Shown here: positions 4,433-48,149 of the stretch, piece by piece
How positions within the stretch are numbered: the first letter of the stretch is position 1
How the letters are laid out: each line of letters begins with the position of its first letter
Assembly: GCF_016887565.1 (NCBI RefSeq)
Contig: NZ_CP069396.1
Coordinates: forward strand, 12,320,001-12,384,000
DNA from: Archangium violaceum
GTDB taxonomy: Bacteria; Myxococcota; Myxococcia; Myxococcales; Myxococcaceae
Length of the DNA: 64,000 nt
Reading direction: 5' to 3'
Position numbers and translations under genes: made by a program
The notes under the pieces: model-generated
Seen by the model: only the letters and a program-made list of their open reading frames with translations
Databases searched by the model: none
What the model was told of the DNA's origin: nothing

Positions 4433-4520
4433 CCTTGTTAGGGTTGCAGCATTACAGCATTGCCGCAGCGCGGCATCCGGCCCCGGCCGCGCGGGCCTTC
4501 GCGAGGTTCACCGAACCGCC

Positions 4521-6719
4521 ATGAGTCCCATCATCACAGGCCTCCTCCTCACCATCGGACTCTCCATCTTCGCCATCACCATGGGAGGGCGCATCGGCGC
4601 CCTGCTGGCGATGAAGAAGGAGAACCGGCTGGACAACATCCCCCAGCGCGTCTCGACGCTCCTGCGCTTCGGCCTCGGGCAGAAGCGCATGGTGGACCCG
4701 GAGGAGTTCACGCCGGGACTGATGCACGTGCTCATCTTCGCGGCGTTCATGGTGCTGGCGCTGCGCACCATCATGATGTTCGCGATGGGCTTCTCCGAGA
4801 CGGCGCTCTCGGTGCTCACAGACCTGACGGACCCGTTCTGGGCGGACAAGCAGGCGCTGCTCACGGTGTACCGGGTGTACCTGCTGGCCAAGGACGTGGT
4901 GGCGGTGGGGGCGCTGCTGGGCGTGCTCTACTTCGCCTACCTGCGAGCCAGCGTGAAGCCGGACCGCATGAGCCCCTCGTGGGAGGCCTACCTCATCCTG
5001 GGCTTCATCGGCGGGCTGATGGTGACCGAGTTCATGTTCGGCGGCAGCCACATGGTGCCCCGCGAGCAGACGATGCCGCTGGCCACGGGCAACTTCGTGT
5101 GGTGGGAGCCGGCCACCAGCGTGATGGGCATGGCGATGAAGCCGCTCGGCTACACGGTGGCCCACGTGCTGGGCGCGGCGGGCTTCTGGATCCACCTGAC
5201 CATCATCCTGGCGTTCCTCAACTTCCTGCCGTGGGGCAAGCACTTCCACGTGATTACGGGCCTGTTCAACGTCTTCTTCCTGCGCATCTCGCCGGAGCAG
5301 CGCAACACGCAGAGCTCGAAGCTGCCCACGCCGAACCTGGAGAAGGAGGAGTTCGGCACCGCGACGGTGAGGGACCTGACGTGGAAGCAGGGCCTGGACC
5401 TGTACTCATGCACCGAGTGCGGCCGTTGCCAGACGCACTGCCCCACGTACATCACGGGCAAGCCGCTCACGCACAAGGGCGTGAACCAGGACCTGAAGCA
5501 CTGGGTCTGGGAGAACCAGATGTGGGTGGAGGAGGGCCGAGGCCCGTCCGGCACCACCGAGCCGCTGCCGGAGATCATCGGCAGCGCGCTGAAGGCGGAG
5601 ACGGTGTGGGCCTGTACGAGCTGCGGCTGGTGCGAGACGGCCTGTCCGGTGTTCATCGAGAACGTGCCGCGGCTCATCGACATGCGGCGCTACCAGGTGC
5701 AGGTGAAGGCGGAGTTCCCGGCCGAAATCCAGCGCGTGTTCGAGGGCATGGAGCGCCAGGGCAACCCCTGGGGCCTGGGCCAGGACAAGCGCGACGACTG
5801 GGCGGCGGACCTCGCGCTGCCGACCTGGGGTGATGGCGGTGGCCCGTACGAGTACCTGTTCTTCGTGGGCTGCGCGGGCAGCTACGACGACAAGCAGAAG
5901 AAGGTGAGCCGGGCGCTGGTGAAGATCCTGCGCGAGGCGGGGGTGAGCTTCGCCACGCTGAGCAAGCAGGAGATGTGCAACGGGGACTCGGCGCGCCGGA
6001 TGGGCAACGAGTACCTGTACCAGACGCTGGCGAAGACGAACGTGGAGACGTGGAACTCGATGGGGGTGAAGGCGGTCATCACCCAGTGCCCGCACTGCTT
6101 CAACACCATCAAGAACGAGTACCCGGAGTTCGGAGGCGAGTACCGGGTCATCAACCACACGCAGCTCATCAATGACCTGCTGAAGGAGAAGCGCATCAAG
6201 CTCTCGCAGGTGATGAACGAGAAGCTGACGTACCACGACCCGTGCTACCTGGGCCGGCACAACGGGGTGTACGACGCGCCGCGCGAGGTGCTGAAGGCGA
6301 TTCCGGGGCTCGAGGTGGTGGAGATGCAGCGCAGCAAGCGAGAAGGCTTCTGCTGCGGCGCGGGTGGCGGGCGGATGTGGATGGAGGAGCACATCGGCAC
6401 GCGCATCAACCACAACCGGTTGAACGAGGCGGCGCTGACGCTCAAGCACGCGGAGGATCCGAACACGCCGTACCCGTCGGCGACGGACAAGCACAAGCCG
6501 GGCCTGGTGGGCGACTACAAGGAGCCGGGAGGCAAGGGCGTGGTGGCGGTGGCGTGTCCGTTCTGCTCGACGATGCTGAAGGACGCGGTGAACGACACGG
6601 GCCGCGAGGAGCTCATCAAGGTGAAGGACATCACCGAGCTGGTGGCGGACGCGATGGAAGTGAAGACGGGAGCGGGGACGGTGGCACCGAGCGTCGCGGT
6701 GAACGCCAAGCCCGAGTAA
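4521..6719 (+). CDS. EtfD/FadF-like membrane Fe-S oxidoreductase (CCG-domain heterodisulfide reductase-like)
   Basis: 732 residues. The first 260 hold several membrane helices in a NarI-like arrangement. Next come two ferredoxin-type cluster motifs, CTECGRCQTHCP near residue 296 and CTSCGWCETACP near residue 365. The C-terminal half has two CCG (heterodisulfide-reductase) modules: CPHCFNT with DPCYLGRHNG near 571 and GFCCGAGGG near 609, then ACPFCS near 678. This architecture is that of FadF and of EtfD (electron-transfer-flavoprotein membrane oxidoreductase), which pass electrons from acyl-CoA dehydrogenases via EtfAB to quinone. The expected role is therefore beta-oxidation electron transfer at the inner membrane. 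No etfAB genes are adjacent. It is a single-gene unit, divergent from the ELWxxDGT genes and behind the palindrome at 4417-4432. The family is secure; the electron donor is inferred. Confidence 0.88.
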   Translation: MSPIITGLLLTIGLSIFAITMGGRIGALLAMKKENRLDNIPQRVSTLLRFGLGQKRMVDPEEFTPGLMHVLIFAAFMVLALRTIMMFAMGFSETALSVLTDLTDPFWADKQALLTVYRVYLLAKDVVAVGALLGVLYFAYLRASVKPDRMSPSWEAYLILGFIGGLMVTEFMFGGSHMVPREQTMPLATGNFVWWEPATSVMGMAMKPLGYTVAHVLGAAGFWIHLTIILAFLNFLPWGKHFHVITGLFNVFFLRISPEQRNTQSSKLPTPNLEKEEFGTATVRDLTWKQGLDLYSCTECGRCQTHCPTYITGKPLTHKGVNQDLKHWVWENQMWVEEGRGPSGTTEPLPEIIGSALKAETVWACTSCGWCETACPVFIENVPRLIDMRRYQVQVKAEFPAEIQRVFEGMERQGNPWGLGQDKRDDWAADLALPTWGDGGGPYEYLFFVGCAGSYDDKQKKVSRALVKILREAGVSFATLSKQEMCNGDSARRMGNEYLYQTLAKTNVETWNSMGVKAVITQCPHCFNTIKNEYPEFGGEYRVINHTQLINDLLKEKRIKLSQVMNEKLTYHDPCYLGRHNGVYDAPREVLKAIPGLEVVEMQRSKREGFCCGAGGGRMWMEEHIGTRINHNRLNEAALTLKHAEDPNTPYPSATDKHKPGLVGDYKEPGGKGVVAVACPFCSTMLKDAVNDTGREELIKVKDITELVADAMEVKTGAGTVAPSVAVNAKPE

Positions 6720-18432: not shown

Positions 18433-21363
18433 GTGTTGTCTCTTCGTCTCGATTCCATTCGCGCCGCGCTCGCGGCGCTCGCACTGCTGGCCGCGCCCGT
18501 CATGGCGCAGGCCCCCGTCGAGGGCACCTCCCCCGCGACGGCTCCCACCGAGCCCGCTGCTCCCGTCGAGGCCCCGGCTCCCGTCGAAGCCACCGCTCCC
18601 ACCGAAGACCCTCACCCCAGCCCTCTCCCAGAGGGAGAGGGGGCGGACACGGGCAGCGAGGACGAGATGATGGCGGAGTCCGCCACGCCTCCTCCGGGTT
18701 TCACCGGCGTCTATGGCCAGGTCACCGACGCCCAGACGAAGGAGACGCTCATCGAGGCCACGGTGAAGGTCGTCGCCGGCGCGCAGAAGAGCGTCCTCAC
18801 CGACGTGGACGGCAACTACCGGCTGGCGCTGCCTCCCGGGAAGTACGACCTGCGCGTCTTCTATGACGTCTACGAGGGCCGCCGCATCACCGGCGTCGTC
18901 GTGGAGGAGGGCAAGGCCACCCGGCTGGACGTGCAGCTGAGCGCCGACGCGGGCGCCGTACAGGAAGTGGTCGTCGAGGCCCGCGCGGACCGCCGCGCCG
19001 AGGGCGCGCTGCTGCAGGAGCGCAAGAAGGCCGCCGCCGTCTCCGACGCCATCAGCTCCCAGGAGATGTCGCGCACACCGGACTCGAGCGCCTCGGACGC
19101 GGTGAAGCGCGTGGTGAGTGCCACGGTGGTCGGTGGTCGCTACGTGCTGCTGCGCGGCCTGGGGGGCCGCTACTCCACCACGCTGCTCAACGGCGCCATC
19201 CTCCCCAGCCCCGAGCCGGACGAGCAGGCCGTCCCGCTCGACATCTTCCCCACGAGCCTCCTGGCCAACCTCAACATCCTGAAGAGCTACACCGCCGACC
19301 TGCCGGGCACCTTCGCTGGCGGCGTGCTGCTCATCGAGACCAACAACTATCCGTCCCAGTTCGAGTTCAAGCCGCGCATCAGCTTCTCGGGCGACACGGC
19401 GAGCACGTTCCGCGACCGCTTCACCTACAACGGTGGCGGGCTGAACTGGCTGGGCTTCGACGATGGCACGCGCAAGCTGCCGGACTCCGTGCCGCGCACG
19501 GGTCCGCTGCTCCCCGGACAGAACGGGATGACGGTGGATGACGTGAACCGGGTGGGCCGGGACTTCCCCAACATCTGGACCCTGGAGACCGCGCGCGCCC
19601 TTCCCAACCTCGGCATCGGCGCGTCCATTGGCGACACGCTGCGCTTCGACAACAAGCGCCTGGGCTACCTGGCCATGGTGAACTACGGCCACAAGGAGAG
19701 CGTCCAGCTCACGGACGTCACGGGCACCCAGGCCGCGCAGGGGGGCGGTGTCACCATCGAGGACACCTCCCGCAACGTGCTGGGCACCGAGAGCGCCAGC
19801 CTCAGCGGTCTCGTCAGCGCGGGCTTCCAGCCGAGCCGCGACTTCGAGCTGTCCCTCTTCTCGCTCTTCACCCGCACGGGCGAGAGCCGGGCGCGCTCCA
19901 TCGCCGGCGCCGACGCCCAGGGCCAACAGTTCAGCAAGACCGCCTCCGAGTTCACCAGCCGCGCCCTCACCTTCAACCAGCTCCGCGGCTTCCACCGGCT
20001 GAACGTGCTCGGGGACATGGAGGTCGACTGGCAGGCCAACTACTCCTACGTCGACCGCTCCGAGCCGGACACGCGCAGCCTGCCCTACGGCTACACAGAG
20101 TCGGGCACGCGCCGGTACAACAACGACCCGGGCGCCGAGCGCTGGTACAGCGAGCTCGGGGAGAGCTCCTTCGGTGGCAGCGCCAACGCCACCCTGCCGC
20201 TGTCCGGCGTGCGCCTGCGTGTGGGCGGTATGGCCCAGGGCTCGATGCGCGCGCTCGACATGCGCCGCTTCCGCTACCAGTACGTGGGGGGCAACCTGCC
20301 CGTGTTGAACCAGGGGCCGGAGGACATCTTCGCCTCGGACAACATCGGCAACGGCATCCGCGTGATGGAGAACACCCTGTCGGACGATGCCTACGAGGCC
20401 ACGCTCGGCCTGTTCGCCGGCTACGCCACCGCCGACGTGTCCCTCTGGGAGCCGCTGCGCCTGGTGGCGGGCCTGCGCTACGAGGCCAGCATCCAGCGGC
20501 TCACCAGTGGCAGCGACTTCGGTGGCCGCGCGGACCCCAAGGAAGCCAACCAGGACTACAGGGACTTCCTGCCGACGCTCAACGTCATCTACGCGCTCAA
20601 CCCCCAGCTCAACCTGCGCGCCGGCTACAGCTACACGCTGGCCCGCCCCACCTTCCGCGAGCTGGCGCCCGTCCTCTACTACGACTTCGTCCGCAACCGC
20701 TCCGTGTCGGGCGACCCGACGCTGGTGCAGACGCGCATCCACAACGTGGACGCGCGCGCCGAGTGGTTCCCGGGTGAGAACGACGTGCTCGCCGCGAGCG
20801 TCTTCTACAAGCGCTTCCAGCAGCCCATCGAGCGCATCATCGTCTCGTCCTTCCAGCAGGACGTCAGCTTCGACAACGCCCCGGGCGCCACCAGCTACGG
20901 CGTGGAGTTGGAGGCGCGCACCTCGCTGGGGCGCCTCACGCCCACCCTGGCGCCGCTGCGCGTGGGAGCCAACCTGACCCTCACCCGCTCGGAGATCGAC
21001 CTCGGGGACTCCGCGCCCCTGCAGACGAATCAGCAGCGTCCGCTGCAGGGCCAGTCGCCCTATGTGGTCAACCTCAACCTCGGCTACGCGCGGACGGAGA
21101 GCGGGACGGAGATCTCCCTGCTCTACAACGTGGTCGGCGCCCGCATCTCCGAGGTCGGCATCGAGGGTCTGCCGGACGTGTACGAGCAGCCGTTCCACCG
21201 CGTTGACCTGACGGTGGGGCAGAAACTGAGCGACAGCCTGCAGCTCAAGCTCGCCGCCACCAACATCCTCAACCAGCCCGTGGTGTTCCGGCAGGGCGAC
21301 GTCGACGTCCTGAAATACCGGCCCGGCGTGGCGTTCTCCGCGTCGCTCGGCTGGAGCCTGTAG
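18433..21363 (+). CDS. TonB-dependent outer-membrane receptor with N-terminal carboxypeptidase-regulatory-like domain
   Basis: 976 residues if translation begins at the GTG at 18433, which has GAGGAG just upstream; a GTG at 18421 is possible but has no ribosome-binding site. A signal peptide (LAALALLAAPVMAQA) is followed by a Pro/Ala-rich spacer, then a CarboxypepD_reg-like domain (GVYGQVTDAQTKETLIEATV). The plug comes next (AISSQEMSRTPDSSASDAVK and RYVLLRGLGGRYSTTLLNG), then a large beta-barrel ending with an aromatic-rich strand (SASLGWSL). It imports a ligand across the outer membrane using the TonB/ExbBD complex encoded just upstream. The spacer includes a peptide specified by a palindromic repeat (18609-18643). 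The substrate is unknown; the downstream lipoprotein probably assists it. Confidence 0.9.
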   Translation: MLSLRLDSIRAALAALALLAAPVMAQAPVEGTSPATAPTEPAAPVEAPAPVEATAPTEDPHPSPLPEGEGADTGSEDEMMAESATPPPGFTGVYGQVTDAQTKETLIEATVKVVAGAQKSVLTDVDGNYRLALPPGKYDLRVFYDVYEGRRITGVVVEEGKATRLDVQLSADAGAVQEVVVEARADRRAEGALLQERKKAAAVSDAISSQEMSRTPDSSASDAVKRVVSATVVGGRYVLLRGLGGRYSTTLLNGAILPSPEPDEQAVPLDIFPTSLLANLNILKSYTADLPGTFAGGVLLIETNNYPSQFEFKPRISFSGDTASTFRDRFTYNGGGLNWLGFDDGTRKLPDSVPRTGPLLPGQNGMTVDDVNRVGRDFPNIWTLETARALPNLGIGASIGDTLRFDNKRLGYLAMVNYGHKESVQLTDVTGTQAAQGGGVTIEDTSRNVLGTESASLSGLVSAGFQPSRDFELSLFSLFTRTGESRARSIAGADAQGQQFSKTASEFTSRALTFNQLRGFHRLNVLGDMEVDWQANYSYVDRSEPDTRSLPYGYTESGTRRYNNDPGAERWYSELGESSFGGSANATLPLSGVRLRVGGMAQGSMRALDMRRFRYQYVGGNLPVLNQGPEDIFASDNIGNGIRVMENTLSDDAYEATLGLFAGYATADVSLWEPLRLVAGLRYEASIQRLTSGSDFGGRADPKEANQDYRDFLPTLNVIYALNPQLNLRAGYSYTLARPTFRELAPVLYYDFVRNRSVSGDPTLVQTRIHNVDARAEWFPGENDVLAASVFYKRFQQPIERIIVSSFQQDVSFDNAPGATSYGVELEARTSLGRLTPTLAPLRVGANLTLTRSEIDLGDSAPLQTNQQRPLQGQSPYVVNLNLGYARTESGTEISLLYNVVGARISEVGIEGLPDVYEQPFHRVDLTVGQKLSDSLQLKLAATNILNQPVVFRQGDVDVLKYRPGVAFSASLGWSL
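18609..18643. repeat. Interspersed palindromic repeat inside the receptor coding sequence
   Basis: The core at 18621-18641 is CCCTCTCCC, AGA, GGGAGAGGG: a 9-bp perfect inverted repeat with a 3-nt loop, preceded by CCCTCACCCCAG. It is in frame and encodes the tract HPSPLPEGEG in the low-complexity spacer of the receptor. A near-identical copy lies between genes at 61353-61387. This places it in a mobile REP-like repeat class rather than in the receptor family itself. Confidence 0.8.
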
Positions 21364-47794: not shown

Positions 47795-47848
47795 CCTGTC
47801 AGGTCCGCTCTGGCCGCCGCGTCACTGAGAGCATGGACGCAAAGCTTT

Positions 47849-47990
47849 GAAGCGCCCGCCCGGAGAGGCCATACACGCACGTTCTGTTGGTTCGAATCCA
47901 ACTCCCGGCACTCCACGCCGGGATAGCCAAATGGTAAAGGCACTCGACTCTTCATCGAGCAACTCGACGGCTTCCCCACTCGGGCGCTTC
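47849..47990 (+). tRNA. Circularly permuted tRNA-like gene, Lys-type anticodon CTT
   Basis: The 3' half comes first: T-stem GTTGG/CCAAC around TTCGAAT (47886-47902), then acceptor strand TCCCGGC (47903-47909). After a 7-nt loop (ACTCCAC) comes the 5' half: acceptor GCCGGGA (47917-47923, perfect 7-bp match), TA, and a D-arm GCC/GGC with GG in the loop. The anticodon stem CTCGA/TCGAG surrounds loop CTCTTCA, giving CTT at 47950-47952. The break falls in the variable region. The unit is enclosed by GAAGCGCCCG (47849-47858) pairing with CGGGCGCTTC (47981-47990) and by motifs at 47860-47880 and 47966-47983 that recur in the next unit. No CCA is encoded next to the acceptor. Position 37 is C, which is unusual. 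Whether a mature tRNA is made is unknown. Confidence 0.65.
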
Positions 47991-48009: not shown

Positions 48010-48149
48010 CGTGTCTGGCCGAAGAGGCCCTACAAGCACATGGGCTCTCGTGGTCGCCGGTTCGAGTCCGGCCCTCCCGATCCGCTTCACCGGGGGGTAG
48101 CTCAGGGGTAGAGCTCGAGACTGAAAGACGGCTTCCTCACTCGGACACG
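48010..48149 (+). tRNA. Circularly permuted tRNA-like gene, Phe-type anticodon GAA
   Basis: The 3' half comes first: anticodon-stem 3' strand TCTCG (48046-48050), variable TGGTC, T-stem GCCGG/CCGGC around TTCGAGT, then acceptor CCTCCCG (48073-48079). After an 11-nt loop comes the 5' half: acceptor CGGGGGG (48091-48097; six Watson-Crick pairs and one G-U), TA, D-arm GCTC/GAGC, anticodon-stem CGAGA (48116-48120) and CTGAAA with GAA at 48123-48125. The break is in the anticodon loop next to position 37; joining CTGAAA to the C at 48045 restores a normal 7-nt loop. CGTGTCTG (48010-48017) pairs with CGGACACG (48142-48149) outside. Motifs at 48019-48039 and 48127-48144 match those of the first unit. 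Confidence 0.65.

Follow-up and report, generated by a model that had tools for sequence, protein, structure and literature searches.

A permuted tRNA-like unit at positions 48010-48149 of the window raises the question of whether it encodes a tRNA-Phe or an RNA of another kind. The window is a 64,000-nucleotide stretch of the Archangium violaceum genome (contig NZ_CP069396.1, positions 12,320,001 to 12,384,000, forward strand; the genome is G000 below). The preliminary description took the unit for a tRNA-Phe(GAA) gene broken in the anticodon loop, with halves to be joined in the RNA, beside a second permuted unit with another break point. Every cloverleaf element and pairing it named at 48010-48149 is present, and the second unit is real, spanning 47852-47987 and broken at the variable loop. 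The description overlooked that each unit's own ends pair with one another. The two units are most likely tRNA-mimicking structural RNAs of the Y RNA kind and not a tRNA-Phe gene. Their features are given below; R1 is a covariance model of unit 2, the unit in question, built from 23 aligned sequences.

47797-47823 (contig 12367797-12367823), + strand: promoter-like element TGTCAGG-N16-CGTC, upstream of unit 1 (pattern search)
47852-47987, + strand: unit 1, candidate Y RNA-like RNA, tRNA-like body entered at the variable loop (stem scan, fold, ARAGORN join, R1 73.3 bits)
47852-47870, + strand: unit 1 terminal stem, 5' strand, GCGCCCG, CCC, GGAGAGGCC (sequence, stem scan, fold)
47886-47910, + strand: unit 1 T arm, acceptor 3' strand, position 73 (sequence, fold, ARAGORN join)
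47917-47959, + strand: unit 1 acceptor 5' strand, D arm, closed anticodon-like hairpin with loop CTCTTCA (sequence, fold, ARAGORN join)
47969-47987, + strand: unit 1 terminal stem, 3' strand, GGCTTCCCC, ACT, CGGGCGC (sequence, stem scan, fold)
48011-48148, + strand: unit 2, candidate Y RNA-like RNA, tRNA-like body entered via the anticodon stem (covariation, R1, Rfam)
48011-48029, + strand: unit 2 terminal stem, 5' strand, GTGTCTG, GCC, GAAGAGGCC (covariation, helices 1 and 2)
48046-48080, + strand: unit 2 anticodon-stem 3' strand, variable region, T arm, acceptor 3' strand, A73 (helices 3-5, ARAGORN join)
48091-48126, + strand: unit 2 acceptor 5' strand, D arm, anticodon-stem 5' strand, CTGAAA (helices 3, 5 and 6, helix 6 invariant; ARAGORN join)
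48130-48148, + strand: unit 2 terminal stem, 3' strand, GGCTTCCTC, ACT, CGGACAC (covariation, helices 1 and 2)

Structure and conservation of the two units

Unit 2 reads 5' to 3' as GTGTCTG, GCC, GAAGAGGCC, a linker, TCTCG, the variable region, the T arm and the acceptor 3' strand with A73, followed by a short linker, the acceptor 5' strand, the D arm, CGAGA, a linker, GGCTTCCTC, ACT and CGGACAC. The anticodon stem pairs TCTCG (48046-48050) with CGAGA (48116-48120), and the acceptor strands stand in inverted order (CCTCCCG at 48073-48079, CGGGGGG at 48091-48097). The T arm occupies 48056-48072 and the D arm 48100-48114; the break lies between the C at 48045 and CTGAAA at 48121-48126. At the ends, GTGTCTG pairs with CGGACAC and GAAGAGGCC with GGCTTCCTC, with one mismatch in the window copy. 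The terminal stem of both units consists of 7 bp, a small internal loop and 9 bp. Unit 1 is built on the frame of unit 2 with two differences: a closed anticodon-like hairpin and entry into the body at the variable loop. Each unit is read as one closed RNA because its own ends pair together, and the permuted order is explained without splicing because these ends form a conserved stem. The transcript would fold back so that its ends form the two-part stem with the complete tRNA-like body on top. Entry into the body via the anticodon stem (unit 2) or the variable loop (unit 1) would make the gene read as a permuted tRNA, with no splicing needed. A single intron-bearing tRNA assembled from the 5' part of unit 1 and the 3' part of unit 2 scored 28.1 bits against a cut-off of 29 and was rejected because the acceptor strands of each unit pair together. 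A Twister-sister ribozyme match was weak (20.8 bits, cut-off 34).

A DNA search returned matches in 30 of the 96 family genomes, counting the genome of the window; a small number of these matches were short or weak. The alignment comprised the window and 22 of the 30 loci (23 sequences); the window's own locus (L001), a near-copy of L010 (L011) and the weak or odd matches L025-L030 were left out. The structure tested for covariation was written by hand from the window. Across the 23 sequences 98.0% of 851 cells were paired, and 16 of the 37 pairs (57 cells) had changed on both sides. None of 500 shuffles reached the covariation score. Helices 1 and 2 of the terminal stem comprise 16 pairs with 95.2-99.4% of cells paired, seven of them changed on both sides. 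Changes of this type occurred in five of the six helices; the D stem (helix 6) never varies and is therefore uninformative on conservation. When the structure was slid by 1-3 columns, pairing fell to 35.5-50.8%. The spread over genomes, the covariation score and the slid structures show that the arrangement is more than chance. Decay of the halves in close relatives had been named as the outcome that would count against the proposal; the halves are conserved and the anticodon is not.

A similar picture could arise by chance or from what is left of adjacent tRNA genes, as tandem tRNA genes likewise read T arm and then D arm and R1 matches some of them. Such an origin is extremely improbable in view of the two-sided changes in five of six helices beside an invariable D stem, the presence of an upstream element and a geometry kept in all 23 sequences. 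Folding of single sequences gave different results for the two units. Unit 1 folded as modelled with a stability of z = -3.47. Unit 2 was no more stable than its shuffles (z = -0.20), and its minimum-energy structure departs from the covariation model in the inner stem and the linkers.

Joining tests and the tRNA-like bodies

Neither unit was detected by ARAGORN or Rfam at standard cut-offs. As had been proposed, joining CTGAAA to C48045 restores the cloverleaf: with its 5' part joined to its 3' part, unit 2 is called by ARAGORN as a 72-nt tRNA-Phe(GAA). The equivalent join produced a tRNA call in 23/23 aligned sequences, compared to 0/23 unjoined units and 0/920 dinucleotide shuffles. Unit 1 joined at the variable loop was called tRNA-Lys(CTT) at 24 of the 25 join points tried. 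Anticodon identity is not conserved, and the triplet at positions 34-36 takes seven forms among the 23 sequences (GAA 8, AAA 5, TGA 4, CCA 2, CCC 2, CAA 1 and GGA 1). The 5' linker measures 14-18 nt and the 3' linker 9-13 nt, and with such variable lengths there is no fixed splice point. A comparison with the regular tRNA-Phe gene had been suggested, and ARAGORN finds an ordinary tRNA-Phe(gaa) elsewhere in G000 (L214), which argues against the tRNA-gene reading. The idea of a Phe tRNA gene with halves to be joined is not supported in view of GAA in only 8 of 23 sequences, varying linkers and an ordinary tRNA-Phe in the genome. What stands of the earlier reading is the complete permuted cloverleaf, the existence of two units and a structure under selection.

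In a true permuted tRNA-Phe gene the precursor would be cut and joined in the anticodon loop, for example by RtcB, and the acceptor trimmed to give a working tRNA. The full cloverleaf of the joined form in 23/23 sequences fits such a gene, as do eight stretches of G000 with RtcB matches and a break at 37/38, which PMC3978253 describes as one of the known positions in permuted tRNA genes. The same source describes the maturation of known permuted tRNAs as running through a circle. This explanation is very unlikely given the unconserved anticodon, the linkers of varying length, the ordinary tRNA-Phe and the equivalent stems elsewhere that hold unpermuted, partial or absent tRNA bodies. Unit 2 resembles the circularly permuted tRNA genes of algae and archaea in that the 3' half precedes the 5' half. 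There the halves are joined via a BHB motif into a true tRNA, whereas unit 2 has an unconserved anticodon and a long conserved end stem. Before a permuted tRNA-like gene of a bacterium is annotated as a tRNA gene, its ends should be examined for pairing.

What stays constant in these units is the stem and not the body, and this is the most telling point against a tRNA-Phe gene. A stem scan of the loci yielded 72 distinct units shorter than 200 nt, many of them from related genomes. Wrapped as circles with an intron allowed, 38/72 were called tRNAs compared to 1/1440 shuffles; among the other units of the scan, some combined a T arm with different hairpins and some lacked any tRNA part. A second script took as input 46 of 88 R1 matches, those from the more distant of the protein loci described below, and found an unpermuted tRNA-like body inside the stem in 6/46 units and in 0/920 shuffles. 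The six units with a complete unpermuted body are:

L187 3043-3177
L188 2749-2883
L178 2192-2334
L186 1971-2104
L191 3821-3955
L209 3515-3643

Stems were found with differently permuted and with unpermuted bodies, and tRNA bodies are therefore accepted in at least three rotations. A single stem that presents tRNA mimics in different rotations, among them an unpermuted one, is a natural experiment on the role of the tRNA body of Y RNAs. The loci L028 and L029 of one genus (g5) have the full stem with a partial tRNA body. The 3'-stem pattern by itself is at background (27 matches, 29 in the reversed control). Genome annotation could list the unpermuted bodies within stems as ordinary tRNA genes. 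Two further stem-bearing units lie in G000, L066 (C1 8496000-8496121) and L067 (C1 9936988-9937088), each behind a promoter-like element; each body is an incomplete tRNA in which a T arm is accompanied by other hairpins.

Probable YrlA-type RNAs and a Ro60-like protein

Established YrlA RNAs are bound by Ro60/Rsr, carry tRNA-type base modifications and contact PNPase. In an Rfam search of 421 bases YrlA (RF02553) was the best family for unit 2, matched over the full model with 40.8 bits (E = 9.4e-8) against a gathering score of 69, which is a library threshold and not a biological definition. Unit 1 scored 16.0 bits (E = 1.4), also below 69, and relatives in two other loci (L133 and L184) gave 43.2 and 38.2 bits. 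The YrlA consensus in the Rfam alignment has the order T arm, acceptor hairpin, D arm, which is the order of unit 2, so the permuted order as such is not new. The ends of the units pair into a long stem, and the tRNA-like domain has D, T and acceptor arms. According to PMC8394870, the ends of YrlA RNAs pair into a large stem, which the Ro60 orthologue Rsr binds, and the RNAs also contain a tRNA-like domain. By that description and the Rfam alignment, the units share with YrlA the paired-end stem and a tRNA-like body with the same permuted order of arms, continuing into the position of the anticodon stem. They differ in scoring below the Rfam cut-off, in stem sequence, in standing in arrays, in having bodies also entered at the variable loop or acceptor end and in a candidate partner protein that has no TROVE match. 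Both units are very probably non-coding Y RNA-like RNAs of the YrlA type, and their likely partner would be a divergent Ro60-like ring protein.

The paired-end stem would bind this Ro-like protein. The tRNA mimic would dock a tRNA-recognising enzyme or exonuclease, or gate the ring, in RNA quality control, and tethering of this kind could affect RNA decay or repair. The Ro60 site of vertebrate Y RNAs is given in PMC4726728 as a conserved seven-base-pair lower-stem helix with bulges. Compared by description with that source, the units too have a 7-bp helix followed by a small internal loop, and bacterial Y RNAs are called non-homologous with the vertebrate clades there (PMC4726728). Unlike vertebrate Y RNAs, the units carry a tRNA mimic as an internal domain. 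Their CTTCACT strand presumably resembles a strand of vertebrate Y RNAs. YrlA-like matches below the cut-off were also seen in two phages, Arthrobacter phage Atuin (L031 2501-2559), near an annotated Ro-like gene, and Microbacterium phage Floof (L032 2484-2578), near an RtcB-like ligase gene.

In several genomes the units stand 8-10 kb apart in a conserved neighbourhood with the gene for a 587-aa vWA-domain protein. R1 matches were found in 86 of the 195 phylum genomes and the protein in 84 at E ≤ 0.001, of which 76 are strong and 8 match only around the vWA part. Co-occurrence of the RNA (R1 E ≤ 0.001) with the 76 strong proteins was counted by hand from the R1 and protein searches. Among the 195 genomes 74 have both, 12 the RNA only, 2 the protein only and 107 neither (Fisher p = 3.7e-38, inflated by shared ancestry). 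The counts within the family are 73, 1, 1 and 21, respectively (p = 6.1e-19, likewise inflated by shared ancestry). The R1 matches of G000 at L065 and L068-L070 are, by eye, tandem ordinary tRNA genes and were excluded as units; L071 and L072 were left out. Weak R1 matches are unsafe because R1 also matches tandem tRNA genes; unit 2 itself scored 143.6 bits and is among the 23 sequences from which the model was built. Eleven of the 12 genomes with the RNA only lie outside the family (E = 8.2e-4 to 2.8e-7), and the twelfth, G007, has E = 1.7e-4. Genus g5, with 16 genomes, gave only weak R1 matches (E = 6.5e-5 to 2.3e-6). Genus g7 is divided: RNA and protein are both absent from G035-G038 and both present in G039-G041.

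A protein-profile search of named genomes gave 75 loci among the matches listed. They come from Archangium, Hyalangium, Myxococcus, Corallococcus, Pyxidicoccus and others, Labilithrix, MAGs of Polyangiaceae and Kofleriaceae, two Virgisporangium genomes and MAGs labelled Planctomycetota, Gammaproteobacteria and Schekmanbacteria; labels on MAGs can be mistaken. At E ≤ 0.05, R1 made 88 matches in these loci, all on the strand of the protein. A total of 83 are found upstream of the protein gene at a distance of up to 1.6 kb, in 46 of the 75 loci among the matches listed, with up to seven per locus. The remaining 29 listed loci lack an in-range RNA match, 25 of them have none at all, and three of those 25 offer at most 203 upstream bases. 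G000 has one protein gene (L119 10067-11842), about 2.4 Mb from the window pair, and no such gene adjoins the pair itself. Homologues of the window pair precede a copy of the protein gene by 80-82 nt in two other genomes. In G042 the units L133 4077-4208 and 4234-4368 end 82 nt before a second copy at 4451-6250; in G039 a copy on the minus strand, at C29 18957-20720, follows R1 matches at 20800-21098. The window pair therefore looks like the G042/G039 pair minus the protein gene. The upstream, same-strand position in 46 of the 75 loci among the matches listed would also suit a structured cis-acting leader of the vWA-gene operon that is not a free RNA. Such a leader is unlikely, considering the copies with no adjoining vWA gene (both window units, L066 and L067) and the several units within one locus.

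Ro60 is a human autoantigen, a ring protein with a TROVE and a vWA domain. The TROVE family (PF05731) has no match in G000. Pfam assigned vWA-type domains to the protein, and TROVE was matched by 0/22 members at E ≤ 10. Profile comparison with phage Ro proteins gave an alignment confined to the vWA part. Solved structures searched by sequence returned a vWA protein and one unrelated weak match, and the profile search of solved structures returned vWA-type proteins only. The protein is termed Ro60-like and not a TROVE member because it has no Pfam TROVE match. The lone TROVE match among the 96 family genomes (L033, G032:C23 130735-130896; E = 3.0e-4, over the cut-off) is a short stretch in a 556-aa reading frame and not the Ro60-like vWA protein of that genome.

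An AlphaFold2 model was calculated from 50 sequences (pLDDT 83.1, pTM 0.69). The first nine Foldseek matches in the PDB were all Ro60/TROVE entries (E = 1.9e-9 to 7.6e-8; TM by query 0.43-0.51), with a moderate fold likeness at 13-15% identity. VIA aligned 429 residues to human Ro60 (9nen; Z = 15.2, 4.5 Å) and 426 residues to 9kop (Z = 15.4, 5.5 Å). Among the 50 matches listed, more than 400 residues were aligned only in nine Ro60/TROVE entries (426-442 residues). Chains with only a vWA domain reach equal Z over about 160-190 residues, and the fold argument therefore rests on the whole-length alignment. A poorer first model (pTM 0.46) had Ro60 as its first six Foldseek matches, and VIA gave vWA-only chains and Ro60 similar Z. 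A helical ring with a vWA domain is seen in the predicted whole-protein model only. D400, S402 and S404, which we take to be the metal-site residues of the DxSxS motif, are invariant in the 50 sequences, consistent with a vWA metal site. The protein shares with Ro60/Rsr the predicted helical domain plus vWA, the whole-length match to Ro60, to D. radiodurans Rsr and to a TROVE structure, and a gene beside Y RNA-like RNAs. It differs in the missing TROVE sequence match and the about 13-16% identity in structural alignments. The model indicates that the vWA protein is likely a divergent Ro60-like ring protein.

Promoter-like element and gene neighbourhood

Of 73 distinct units, 38 have an element of the type TGTCAGG, 14-19 bases, CGTC in the 150 nt before them, compared to an expectation of 0.0085 per unit. 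The element is present before unit 1 and absent before unit 2. Transcription probably starts at the TGTCAGG-N16-CGTC element, and unit 2 is probably co-transcribed with unit 1. The neighbourhood encodes sigma-type (Sigma70_r2) and zf-HC2 proteins. A like element precedes the neighbouring sigma-type gene in 9/12 loci and stands 28 nt before the Ro-like gene of G000, and perhaps the adjoining ECF-type sigma factor reads it and so regulates the units. The element alone is not specific (23 matches and 15 in the reversed control; 19 and 10 in another search), and the two-part stem was found in 0/20 further element matches.

The gene caller was crude, with unreliable starts and wrong-frame ORFs in the clusters, and for this reason only genes with a Pfam match or a clear frame were used. 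A protein of about 310-330 aa with no assigned family is encoded 3' of the Ro-like gene and is followed by a Prok-JAB protein. Distant loci also encode an 80-aa protein with no Pfam match and a ThiF-type enzyme; the ThiF-type cluster occurs in 22 of the 74 loci compared, in clusters that include wrong-frame ORFs. The downstream set (about 310 aa, Prok-JAB, 80-aa, ThiF/E1-like) is found at L184 5755-7892 and also at L142, L164, L180, L182, L197 and L209. The 80-aa protein might be ubiquitin-like, and from gene content the JAB/80-aa/ThiF set is perhaps a ubiquitin-like modification operon tied to the Ro60/Y RNA system. These JAB and ThiF-type neighbours differ from those in Salmonella, for which PMC7790460 describes rtcBA genes.

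We infer that the units belong to a divergent Ro60/Y RNA system, in which tRNA mimics of three or more rotations stand behind a common ECF-like promoter element. A wider reading is tentative and somewhat less probable than its opposite: myxobacteria and scattered other bacteria would have a distinct Ro60/Y RNA system in which a ring protein that escapes TROVE models is served by arrays of up to seven RNAs, each carrying a tRNA mimic of its own in one of three or more rotations (acceptor end, variable loop, anticodon stem) on a common binding stem. The system would be under an ECF sigma factor and, in many lineages, joined to JAB and ThiF/E1-like genes, and the array would be a repertoire of mimics recruiting tRNA-recognising enzymes or decoying tRNA-attacking toxins. 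The system is known in kind, and the protein branch, the rotations of the tRNA mimics, the arrays and the neighbours are new as far as the open-licence papers listed show; their titles and abstract openings contained no description of such a system in myxobacteria. PMC4726728 puts Ro60 homologues in about 5% of sequenced bacterial genomes. Should the linked vWA protein prove to be a relative of Ro60 that TROVE models miss, the system would be more widespread, and social bacteria such as Archangium, Myxococcus and Corallococcus would become models for it.

Three minor observations concern the surroundings of the units. At L230 (G000:C1 9143012-9143337) a hairpin and a T arm, making up a tRNA-like fragment, stand behind the promoter-like element; no two-part stem was found there and ARAGORN called no gene. 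A metallophosphoesterase gene lies between two units in 10/16 regions; this calcineurin-like phosphoesterase, encoded between or after units at L073 13292-13993 with equivalents at L074-L079, L081, L082, L084 and L086, partly resembles ApaH and bacterial Pnkp, with scores under their cut-offs. G000 has several RtcB ligase genes, one of which is located at C1 9914144-9915394, about 22 kb from the L067 unit and 35 kb from the Ro60-like gene.
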